The notes under the pieces: generated by a model
Told to the model about the DNA's origin: nothing
Seen by the model: the letters and a program-made list of their open reading frames with translations, nothing else
The model's database searches: none
Assembly: GCA_027858995.1 (NCBI GenBank)
Contig: JAQIBP010000088.1
Coordinates: 43,038-107,037, forward strand
From: Deltaproteobacteria bacterium
GTDB taxonomy: Bacteria; Desulfobacterota; Desulfobacteria; Desulfobacterales; Desulfobacteraceae
DNA: 64,000 bases
Direction of reading: 5' to 3'
Shown here: positions 7,170 through 51,401 of the stretch, one piece after another
Position numbering within the stretch: the stretch's first letter is position 1
Layout of the letters: each line of letters begins with the position of its first letter
Program-made: the position numbers and the translations under genes

Positions 7170-7240
7170 TCAAATAAAGGTTGATATTTTGACATTAAAT
7201 TTTTCAGAATCAATCGTATTAAACAAGGATTGCATTGAGA

Positions 7241-7340
7241 GTCAGCCACAATATGTCCGCTCAGTGTGAATAGAATAATGTTTCAGTCTCATATAATCCT
7301 GAGTTTCATCAAGCAGACGTTTGTTATTTTTACTTGACAT
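7241..7340 (-). pseudogene. integron-integrase-like tyrosine recombinase, N-terminal remnant
   Basis: Minus strand from ATG at 7340: MSSKNNKRLLDETQDYMRLKHYSIHTERTYCG*; resembles IntI-type N-termini (LLDQVR..(L/I)R.KHYS.RTE.AY..W); stop where D-W would be expected. Confidence 0.7.
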
Positions 7341-7461
7341 ATATTCCTCTTCTCTGTTACTGAAATTTTGAGTGAAGTAAAAAATAAATTATCAAGTAGT
7401 TTATACCTGATAATAACCAATTTTGCAGCTTATCAGGTCAAACAACACTGTGAATAAATGG

Positions 7462-8375
7462 TTAGCCTATTGAAATGAAAAGCAGCCAATTTTCAAAGAT
7501 ATGAAAACTAAAGAAACCAGAACAAATTTTATCAACAGAATGATGGGGCTAGATTTCAAAAGCATACAAGGAAAGTATTCTTTTTGTAATGATGAAAGAA
7601 GGCAGGTTCTTTTTAGTCTAGATTTGAAACATGGTGAAAATTCTGGTCTAATTCTTAGTCCAAATTGGTCCCAAAAGGGATATTCACATTCTATGAAGCA
7701 TATCGAGAAAATTTTGAATAATGGATATGACCTTCTAGTATACAAAACTAAATCTACAACAAAAAATGGGGTAACCAAAATAATAGAATATGAGCCCTTG
7801 TTGGAAAAAAGAAAATTAATTGTTGGAGAAGGCGGTAAATATCTAGCAGCCCCTACAAATATTTTTTTTACTGAAGAAATATCTGAAAGTGGTAAACATT
7901 ACTTCGAGGGCACTAAAAAGAATATAACAATCAATGCTTACGAAAGAAATTCAGAAGCTCGACAAGCATGCATTAATGCATTGGGATGTTTATGCAATAT
8001 TTGTGGGTTCGACTTTGAATCTGCCTATGGTGATAGAGGAAAAGGATTTATTCATGTTCATCACATAGTTCCTTTGTCAGAAATAAAAGGTGATTATAAA
8101 ATTAACCCCTTAAAAGACCTCATCACTGTTTGCCCTAATTGTCATGCAATGTTACATCGAAATGGCCATACAATTCCACCAGAAGAATTATTAATAAAAT
8201 AGCCTTTCTTAAAAAATATTCCAAGAAAACGCTACACCTGAAACACCAAGGGCTAACAAATCATTTCACCGGAAAAAAAGAGGTTCGGGGTTTGAGTTGC
8301 TTCCCGCCCCGCATCAAGGAAATAGGTGACTCAATACTCCTTGCCGCGCAATCTTTTTTCCGGTGAATTCAGCCG
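7462..8375 (+). mobile_element. putative integron gene cassette 1 (HNH endonuclease + attC)
   Basis: Begins after G^TTAGCC at 7461; ends at G^TTATGT at 8375; first bases TTAGCC complement the attC R'' GGCTAAC. Confidence 0.72.
7501..8202 (+). CDS. HNH endonuclease (McrA-like C-terminus)
   Basis: CNICGFDFESAYGDRGKGFIHVHHIVPLSEI...DLITVCPNCHAMLHR. Confidence 0.85.
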   Translation: MKTKETRTNFINRMMGLDFKSIQGKYSFCNDERRQVLFSLDLKHGENSGLILSPNWSQKGYSHSMKHIEKILNNGYDLLVYKTKSTTKNGVTKIIEYEPLLEKRKLIVGEGGKYLAAPTNIFFTEEISESGKHYFEGTKKNITINAYERNSEARQACINALGCLCNICGFDFESAYGDRGKGFIHVHHIVPLSEIKGDYKINPLKDLITVCPNCHAMLHRNGHTIPPEELLIK

Positions 8376-8381
8376 TTATGT
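8251..8381 (+). repeat. attC-like recombination site, ~131 bp
   Basis: R'' GGCTAAC ... GTTATGT R'; inner arms TTCACCGGAAAAAA / TTTTTTCCGGTGAA; 8-nt unpaired segments on each side between the TAAC core and the stem. Confidence 0.75.
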
Positions 8382-8424
8382 CAGGCAATCACAAATTAAT
8401 TATTATATTTTATAGGAGTTTATA

Positions 8425-9039
8425 ATGTTTAACGCAGAATTCTTAATTACAGCGTTGGTTGTTGTCCTGATACCAGGGACGGGAGTGATCTATACAGTGT
8501 CAACTGGTCTTTTTCTTGGGTGGCGAGCAAGTATTGCTGCTGCTTGTGGTTGTACAGCCGGTATCATCCCTCACCTGTCTGCAAGCATTCTTGGATTGTC
8601 TGCCATTCTTCATATGAGTGCTGTTGCCTTCCAAGCAGTTAAATATGTAGGCGCTGCCTATTTGCTTTATCTTGCATGGTCAATGTGGCGTGAAACAGGA
8701 GGATTAAAATTTAATTCACCCACCCACAAAAATGGCTTAAAGCAGATTGCAATAAAGGGATTTTTGATTAACATTCTTAATCCAAAACTATCAATTTTCT
8801 TCTTAGCTTTCCTGCCACTTTTTGTCTCGCCAAACACTTCATCACCAATGTTTGATATGCTGATTCTGAGTATTGTTTTTATGACCATGACATTAATTGT
8901 TTTCATTCTGTATGGTATCTCAGCAAATGGAGTTCGACGACATGTTGTCAACTCACCGAAAGTGATTATCTGGCTACAACGATCATTCGCCGCCACATTT
9001 GCAGCTCTTGGTATTAAGCTTGCTGTGACAGACCAATAA
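8425..9039 (+). CDS. LysE/RhtB family translocator (putative cassette 2)
   Basis: FLITALVVVLIPGTGVIYTVSTGLFLGWRASIAAACGCTAGIIPH typical LysE N-terminus. Confidence 0.9.
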   Translation: MFNAEFLITALVVVLIPGTGVIYTVSTGLFLGWRASIAAACGCTAGIIPHLSASILGLSAILHMSAVAFQAVKYVGAAYLLYLAWSMWRETGGLKFNSPTHKNGLKQIAIKGFLINILNPKLSIFFLAFLPLFVSPNTSSPMFDMLILSIVFMTMTLIVFILYGISANGVRRHVVNSPKVIIWLQRSFAATFAALGIKLAVTDQ

Positions 9040-9069
9040 CTTAATTTTAGTGAAAATAGAATTAAGACA

Positions 9070-9095
9070 AGACAACAATGCGTTCAACGCCGACC
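9070..9095 (+). repeat. attC 5' half-site (R''-L'' only)
   Basis: AGACAACAATGCGTTCAACGCCGACC resembles classical attC left arms (TAACAATTCGTTCAAGCCGACG); no matching right arm follows. Confidence 0.6.
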
Positions 9096-9260
9096 AGTGC
9101 GACCGAATTACTTGATTTGCGATCCCCAGTCGGTAACAGGCTTGAAAAGTTGAGTGGAAACAGACAAGGGCAGCACAGCATAAGAATCAACAAGCAGTGG
9201 CGTGTATGCTTTGTATGGTCTGATGAACCATGCGATGTAGAGATAACCGATTATCATTAG
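9078..9260 (+). pseudogene. HigB/RelE-family toxin, 5'-truncated
   Basis: ATELLDLRSPVGNRLEKLSGNRQGQHSIRINKQWRVCFVW...VEITDYH; the usual ~30 N-terminal residues are absent. Confidence 0.75.
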
Positions 9261-9272
9261 GAGATACAAATT

Positions 9273-9572
9273 ATGAACAATATGCGACCAATCCATCCAG
9301 GAGAAATTATCAAAGAAGAGTACCTTAAACCTCTGGATATGAGTATAAATGCTTTGGCAATTGCTTTGCGTGTGCCAGCACCCAGAATTTATGATGTGGT
9401 AAGGGAAAAGCGAGGTGTCAGTATTGATACTGCTCTTAGACTGGCTACATACTTTAACACCACTGCACAATTCTGGATGAATCTACAAGTCAGTTATGAC
9501 CTCAAAATTGCCCGACAGAATATGAAAAAAATCAAGAATGAGATAACCCCTTTGCAAATTGCTGTCGCCTGA
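9273..9572 (+). CDS. higA: HigA-family antitoxin
   Basis: MRPIHPGEIIKEEYLKPLDMSINALAIALRVPAPRIYDVVREKRGVSIDTALRLATYFNTTAQFWMNLQ. Confidence 0.9.
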   Translation: MNNMRPIHPGEIIKEEYLKPLDMSINALAIALRVPAPRIYDVVREKRGVSIDTALRLATYFNTTAQFWMNLQVSYDLKIARQNMKKIKNEITPLQIAVA

Positions 9573-9609
9573 TTTATTCAAGTTGCCTGTTACAAAAAAA
9601 TAGATCATT

Positions 9610-10386
9610 CTATAATTTTATCAGTTTCCCGGGTTGATCAGGCTTTGCAACATGCAGGGTAATATTTGATCCGTTCAAGCCTTTAAAAACTTCTGCAGCA
9701 GCTTTTTCAGGACAATTATTCTCTTCACTTAAATGAGCAAGAATAACATGCTTTAAATTATCTGCCTTAAGCTCTTTAAGTAAATCTCTGGCATCAATAT
9801 TGGACAGATGCCCGGTTCTGCCTTTGATCCTCTGCTTGAGATGCCATGGATAGGAGCCATTGATCAACATTTCAGGGTCATGATTTGACTCAAGATATAA
9901 AACAGTGCTGTTTTGCAAATGATCTTTTACAAGGCTTGTTGCAATACCAAGGTCAGTTGCAATACCCAGTTTATGGGTTTCAAATTCAAGGGTCAGTCCA
10001 ACAGGATCTATGGCATCATGGGAGATTGAAAAAGGATTGATTTTAATTTGATTTATTTTAAAAGATCTGCCGCATTCAAAAAATTGCAAATTTTTAATTT
10101 CACCAAGATTTGAGCAGGCATTCCAGGTTTTTTGTGTGATATAAACAGGAATATTATAACGACGGCTCAATATGCCGGCACCTTTGACATGATCTGAATG
10201 CTCATGGGTGATTATAATTGCTTTAAGACTTTCAGGCTCAAAATGAACTGCGTTTAAACGCCGCTGAATTTCAATACCTGAAAGCCCTGCATCAATTAGA
10301 ATAGAAAAATCATTGCATGAAACAAAAAGGCAGTTCCCCCTGCTTCCACTGGCAAGGGGACAGACAAAAAATGAGTTATTTTTCAT
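9610..10386 (-). CDS. MBL-fold metallo-hydrolase (YycJ/WalJ-like)
   Basis: [22 protein letters not shown] motifs. Confidence 0.85.
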
Positions 10387-42040: not shown

Positions 42041-42065
42041 AAAAACCTCCTTACATAATTTTTTT

Positions 42066-42131
42066 CAGGCAACTGGTTATCTTCCCATAAGACCCATTTG
42101 CTTTCCGCCCCTACTTCGCAATAGGTTTGGT
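42066..42131 (-). promoter_or_regulatory. GEMM/c-di-GMP-I-like riboswitch in the PEP-CTERM leader
   Basis: CAAACCTATTGCGAAGTAGGGGCGGAAAGCAAATGGGTCTTATGGGAAGATAACCAGTTGCC: GNRA-capped hairpin CCTATT-GCGA-AGTAGG, then a second hairpin ending GTTGCC, ~26 nt before the start codon. Confidence 0.65.
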
Positions 42132-42404
42132 TTTTTCGATATTCAATATTGTTTTAAAGCAACATCTGTGCCATCAGCCCATACAGCCCGGAACTATTGT
42201 AAAATGGGCATGTTGAAAAATAAGCGATTATGGTTATTACATTTTTTACATAGTTTTAAGAACTTTTTTATATAATAGTAGTAAATAATGTAATAGTAAT
42301 AATTGTAGCACCAACCTCCGTTCATAAACCATAACTTCATATCCATAGAACGCCACGGACAAGCCATGCCAATAAAACGCCTCTCTGCACCATAAAAAAT
42401 GGCT

Positions 42405-50453: not shown

Positions 50454-51401
50454 ATGAAATATAAAATTTTTGTGGACGGACAGTTTGGAACAACCGGCTT
50501 AAAAATAGATGAAATGTTAAGCAAAAGGGATGAACTTGAGATTTTAAAAATAGCAGAAAAAGGGAAGAAAAACCCTGAGATCAAACAGAAGTTACTTAAT
50601 CAGGCCGATATGGTATTCCTTTGTCTGCCTGATGCTGCTTCTAAGGAAACAATGCAGTATATCACCAATAACAGAACAAAAGTTATCGATGCAAGCACAG
50701 CACATCGGACAAACAGGAAGTGGACTTACGGTATACCGGAATTAAATTTGCTTCAGAGAGAAAAGATAAAAAACAGCACTAGAGTTTGTGTGCCAGGTTG
50801 TCATGCAACAGGTTTTATAATGGCTCTTAACCCTTTGATGGAAAACAATATTGTTTCAAAACAGCAGAAATTGATCTGTCACTCTATCACCGGATACAGT
50901 GGCGGAGGAAGAGGAATGATAGATGTTTATGAAGATCCTGAAAATTTTGACAAAGTAAATTCCCAAAGGCCCTATGCCTTAAATCTTGACCACAAGCACC
51001 TGCCTGAAATGCAGTATGTTTTAGGGTTGGAGACACCACCGCTTTTTACACCAAGCGTTGGAAATTTTAAACAGGGCATGCTGGTGATGTCCTATCTAAT
51101 TAAAGATCAATTGGCTTCACAGATGTCCGGGCAGAAGATTGTGGCGCTGTATACCAAATATTATGAAAACAATCGATTCGTCAAAATCATTGAGAAAACT
51201 GCTGAATACCTTGATGGTGGCTTGTTGGATGCAAAATCGTGTAATAACACAAATAGAATTGAAATATCAGTGTATGAAAATACCGACTATATAGTGATAA
51301 TTTCCTGCTTGGACAACCTTGGAAAGGGTGCTTCGGGCGCAGCGGTTCAGAATATGAACATCATGCTGGGACTGGATGAAAACCTGGGATTGAAGATATA
51401 A
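50454..51401 (+). CDS. argC: N-acetyl-gamma-glutamyl-phosphate reductase, short type
   Basis: FVDGQFGTTGLKI, VPGCHATGF, YSGGGRGMID. Confidence 0.92.
   Translation: MKYKIFVDGQFGTTGLKIDEMLSKRDELEILKIAEKGKKNPEIKQKLLNQADMVFLCLPDAASKETMQYITNNRTKVIDASTAHRTNRKWTYGIPELNLLQREKIKNSTRVCVPGCHATGFIMALNPLMENNIVSKQQKLICHSITGYSGGGRGMIDVYEDPENFDKVNSQRPYALNLDHKHLPEMQYVLGLETPPLFTPSVGNFKQGMLVMSYLIKDQLASQMSGQKIVALYTKYYENNRFVKIIEKTAEYLDGGLLDAKSCNNTNRIEISVYENTDYIVIISCLDNLGKGASGAAVQNMNIMLGLDENLGLKI

Follow-up and report, generated by a model that had tools for sequence, protein, structure and literature searches.

Does the DNA between an ABC exporter and an MBL-fold gene on contig C64, part of a 4.0-Mb draft genome, hold what is left of a single integron? 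A preliminary description of the window, the 64-kb stretch of DNA analysed here, had read it in this way, as an intI start followed by attI and plus-strand modules, all remnants of one integron. Its listed ORFs, inverted repeat and short minus-strand frame were all found in their places, and its reading is borne out by the intI stub, the attI alignment and the attC model. We regard positions 7242-9094 as very probably a decayed sedentary chromosomal integron lacking its integrase.

An integron comprises an intI gene encoding a tyrosine recombinase, an attI site beside it, and attC cassettes in one orientation that point away from intI. Here, 32 codons and a stop are left of intI; attI lies beside them, defined by a seven-locus alignment that ends at the crossover GTT; and the HNH and LysE genes follow on the plus strand, with an attC at 8251-8381. 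The locus is filed as a decayed and not an active integron because its intI is a remnant, although the IntI homology is clear. Table 1 lists its parts, among them the intI remnant, attI, a single complete attC, the starts of the two cassettes and a junction inside higB; comparison of sequences places the attI end, both cassette starts and the deletion junction to the base.

Table 1. Features of the integron locus and of the adjoining higBA genes, in window coordinates
Feature	Position	Strand	Basis or remark
intI remnant	7242-7340	-	codons 1-32; next codon TGA, Trp in relatives; homology stops at ~7241
attI	7341-7461	+	ends ...CTGTGAATAAATGGTT; seven-locus alignment
Cassette 1 (HNH ORF and attC)	7462-8375	+	start complementary to its own R''; attI similarity stops here
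HNH endonuclease-domain protein, 233 aa	7501-8202	+	PF01844, E=1.1e-7
attC	8251-8381	+	covariance model 52.1 bits, E=9e-11; detector 12.8
Cassette 2 (LysE exporter and broken attC)	8376-9094	+	G301 homology begins at 8376
LysE-family amino-acid exporter, 204 aa, intact	8425-9039	+	PF01810, E=5e-33
5' half attC (R''-L'' side), AGACAACAATGCGTTCAACGCCGAC	9070-9094	+	resembles G150 sequence; support moderate
higB, without promoter and first ~40 codons	9078-9260	+	PF05015 positions 40-91 of 91 only
higA antitoxin, intact	9273-9572	+	TIGR02607, E=6e-32

The integrase remnant and attI

Translation from 7340 to 7242 gave MSSKNNKRLLDETQDYMRLKHYSIHTERTYCG, followed by a stop. The closest IntI N-terminus, MSSSKNKHLLDEVRDFMRLKHYSIHTERTYCEWIKRF, was found in G136, a member of another Desulfobacterales family, and shares 25 of the 32 residues with the stub peptide (78%), while the integrases of the genus are 37-52% identical to it across 23-24 residues. 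On the integrase side, DNA similarity to four loci (G277, G284, G136 and G011) stops at 7240-7247. Searches of the 32-aa peptide with hmmscan against Pfam and NCBIfam (TIGR02249 included) and with phmmer against PDB returned no match, the peptide being too short to score, and its assignment to IntI rests on the pairwise and DNA alignments. The identity to the G136 integrase thus upholds the minus-strand intI-like N-terminus proposed at 7340-7241; that reading would have fallen had the peptide matched only non-integron recombinases or nothing, and its annotated plasmid matches are integron integrases.

With 7175-7500 as the query, a nucleotide search of the order recovered this intI start together with its attI in G136, G277, G284, G011, G129 and contig C126 of the same genome. 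In the resulting seven-locus alignment, similarity spans the intergenic part up to ...AATAAATGGTT and then ends at GTT, a limit that coincides with the expected crossover, 7461|7462. The attI-like interval of ~120 bp, which the first reading had inferred, is thereby confirmed, since six further intI-attI loci align across it. An inverted repeat also lies within attI, consisting of ACCTGATAA (7405-7413) and TTATCAGGT (7430-7438) separated by N16, and is mostly kept in the related attI sites.

Cassettes, attC sites and the higB junction

Cassette 1 opens with TTAGCC at 7462 and, together with the preceding G (GTTAGCC, 7461-7467), pairs 7/7 with the R'' sequence GGCTAAC (8251-8257), as is expected of a cassette that circularises; the claimed match between cassette start and R'' is therefore an exact reverse complement. 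Homologues of the HNH protein are patchy across the order, with similarity chiefly in the C-terminal half. The 5' side of the attC is laid out as R'' GGCTAAC, spacer AAATC and L'' ATTtCACCGG with one extrahelical base, and is followed by a long terminal region and by a 3' side consisting of L' CCGGTGAAT, spacer TCAGCC and R' GTTATGT; the inverted repeat pair 8254-8278/8354-8378 is present.

To this site a simple attC detector assigned the top score of the window on both strands, and on dinucleotide-shuffled DNA the same detector produced one score of at least 12 in 900 kb. It replaced an earlier detector (near-full R-box consensus, no extrahelical base), which had missed even the sites of the integron on contig C1 of this genome. 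A covariance model trained on 17 attC sites, the window site being left out, found 8251-8381 as its sole match in the 64-kb window, so that the module of HNH gene and attC stands, and the absence of a covariance match that would have spoken against it did not occur. Most of the 17 training sites had been found via a pattern common to the window site and a C1 site, which makes the R''-L'' side of the model partly non-independent and leaves its L'-R' side independent. The model describes a narrow attC family and recovered only some of the C1 sites; its silence elsewhere therefore proves little. The attC arms recur in independent attC sites, and most of 26 GTDB loci with the same 5' pattern are completed by a matching 3' half, as in CCGGTGAATTCAGACGTTAGGC. 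No match to the attC was returned by blastn against plasmids.

Cassette 2 was delimited with the help of G301, from another family, whose LysE homologue is 88% identical at the nucleotide level over 8376-9048, begins exactly at 8376 and sits between two copies of the recombination-site end TATCGAATCAATATCTAATnTTA. As this match starts at the crossover base and is flanked by repeated recombination-site ends, the status of LysE as a cassette is supported. Its homologues are scattered, occurring in 17 of 292 genomes of the order at 55-91% identity, with up to 91% outside the family. The half attC that follows has a degenerate R'' and lacks the 3' half, and it is similar to the stretch after the LysE homologue of G150 (GACATAACGAATTGCATCAACGCAGACC); a search of viral contigs gave no match to it and a search of plasmids only chance-looking ones. 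Of the proposed module of LysE and half attC, the gene is thus supported as a cassette by the G301 boundary, and the half site moderately so.

An intact higBA pair in G299, from another family, is 97.7% identical to the window at the nucleotide level over 9095-9572 and aligns only from 9095; its higB has ~40 additional codons with a promoter region upstream, and its HigA is 95% identical to that of the window. A match in G165 extends to 9599, 27 bases past the higA stop. Since the half attC passes straight into higB at 9095, supplying the ATG of the truncated gene, and the G299 higB is longer, a deletion has fused the attC to the interior of higB. The "truncated higBA" of the preliminary description accordingly holds for higB and fails for higA, which is full length. 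No attC was detected beside the closest higBA relatives by the covariance model, whose narrow family makes this weak negative evidence; the cassette origin that had been suggested for higBA is not supported by these sequences.

Related integron loci in the genome and genus

On contig C1 (L017/L090) of the same genome, IntI is intact (429 bits) and comes with an array of several attC-like sites, among them an attC whose arms equal those of the window attC (GGGCTAACAAATCA...CCGTTAT). The complete attC of the window may still be a substrate for the C1 integrase, which could thereby mobilise cassette 1. On contig C126 (L195, G000:C126:44000-56000, ~50491-50685), a second stub, MSSKNNKRLFDEARDYMRLKHF followed by a stop, is joined to an attI of the window lineage with 79% nucleotide identity. 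This remnant adjoins an isocitrate-dehydrogenase-like gene, after which come an OLD-like ATPase gene and possible further cassettes. The two integrase-less attI platforms, in the window and on C126, each have their own cassettes, and it is conceivable but quite improbable that both are served in trans by the C1 integrase; if so, one integrase would have several satellite insertion sites.

Contig C46 (L018, G000:C46:7471-8406) encodes an IntI-like protein (345 bits) that is extended at its N-terminus, and IntI-like integrases of ~440-456 aa with such an extension recur in the genus (L018, L098, L100, L104 and L106). Short attC-like hairpins lie near some of these extended integrases, such as CCAACAAATTCAAATGCACCGGGCGAGCCGGTGATTTAGGTTG in L104. 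On the 3.8-kb contig C53, an attC of 43.8 bits (L217, G000:C53:435-505) is followed by two ORFs, one for an EptA-like phosphoethanolamine transferase and one PAP2-like, both named from reading the sequence, which are possibly a cassette.

History of the locus and comparison with known systems

Between the exporter stop codon and the intI remnant lie 72 bp. In some congeners (L024 and L026) the ABC exporter gene is 14 bp from the MBL-fold gene, indicating that the integron is an insertion. Within the genus this gap, 7170-9612 in the window, varies between 14 bp and several kb. A nitroreductase-like gene often occupies it, and in G006 a periplasmic-binding-protein-like gene does; both names were given by eye from the sequence and not by a family search. 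Nothing IntI-like was detected in the exporter/MBL gaps of these congeners. Points against the integron reading are that G006, the closest congener with a fully sequenced gap (78% exporter identity), has no integron there, that none of the relatives examined has one intact at this locus, that the half attC is degenerate and unpaired, and the unassigned 72 bp beside the exporter. Farther along the window, a c-di-GMP-I riboswitch lies at 42065-42141 on the minus strand (Rfam RF01051, 47.2 bits).

In the history that we propose, an integron would once have been located between the ABC-exporter operon and the MBL-fold gene and would have captured at least two cassettes at attI. The cassette nearest attI is the latest captured; LysE would have been acquired earlier and HNH, closer to attI, later. 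A deletion would have destroyed intI, leaving 32 codons and a stop where Trp would have followed, and a second one would have joined the 5' half of the LysE attC to the interior of higB, with loss of the rest of the array and of the higB promoter and 5' end. Capture, deletion of intI and an array-trimming deletion account for every part of the locus; the order of these events, and decay at the present locus, are what we infer.

The decay may instead have happened elsewhere, with an already broken fragment of intI stub, attI and cassettes moving in as a block. The same-lineage stub and attI beside the isocitrate dehydrogenase gene on C126 and the variability of the ABC/MBL gap would suit such a move, which we nevertheless consider unlikely: the window and C126 loci differ at the nucleotide level, in their first genes and in the codon at which intI is broken (32 against ~22), and these differences exclude a recent block duplication. 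That no integron ever stood here, the C1 integrase having put the cassettes at a secondary site to form a CALIN, is very improbable, given that an intI N-terminus and attI face the array head-to-head, correctly ordered and spaced, that the stub belongs to another type of integrase than that of C1 (42% across 24 aa), and that the attI alignment already contradicts it; in its favour are the intact C1 IntI, the R''/L'' sequence shared by a C1 attC, and the proposal of off-target insertion as an origin of CALINs (PMC8618304). Unrelated genes gathered around a chance hairpin in an intergenic gap, a notion to which the other genes found there in congeners (nitroreductase, periplasmic binding protein) lend some colour, can practically be dismissed, as it is excluded by the attC score and by three boundary matches, each independent and resolved to the base.

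As a decayed integron, the window locus is a clear but ordinary case of a known type of genome fossil, and it leaves the understanding of integron function unchanged. It is unusually well delimited, adds one more Desulfobacterales case in which integrase loss stranded chromosomal cassettes, and yields a consensus attI for a lineage of integrases that looks broken in most sampled copies. Integrons that have lost intI and stably retain their remaining cassettes are already on record, the ilvD integrons of Xanthomonas being one example (PMC12444791). There, too, a stop codon or a deletion has disrupted intI, and attI and the cassettes persist; the window differs from them in genus and locus, in having lost nearly all of intI and in holding just two cassettes. 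With CALIN elements, one proposed origin of which is the loss of a recognisable intI (PMC8618304), it shares cassettes without a functional neighbouring integrase. A CALIN is defined by at least two attC sites with no intI nearby, whereas the window, with one complete attC and one half, falls short of this customary minimum and still has attI and the intI stub. It resembles the C1 integron in an attC with the same arms, but the C1 integrase is intact and of another lineage and the C1 array is longer. The intI-attI loci of G129, G136, G277, G284 and G011, all Desulfobacterales, agree with the window in integrase lineage and attI end and differ from it in chromosomal site and cassettes; among them, the G129 integrase reads intact and most others are broken.
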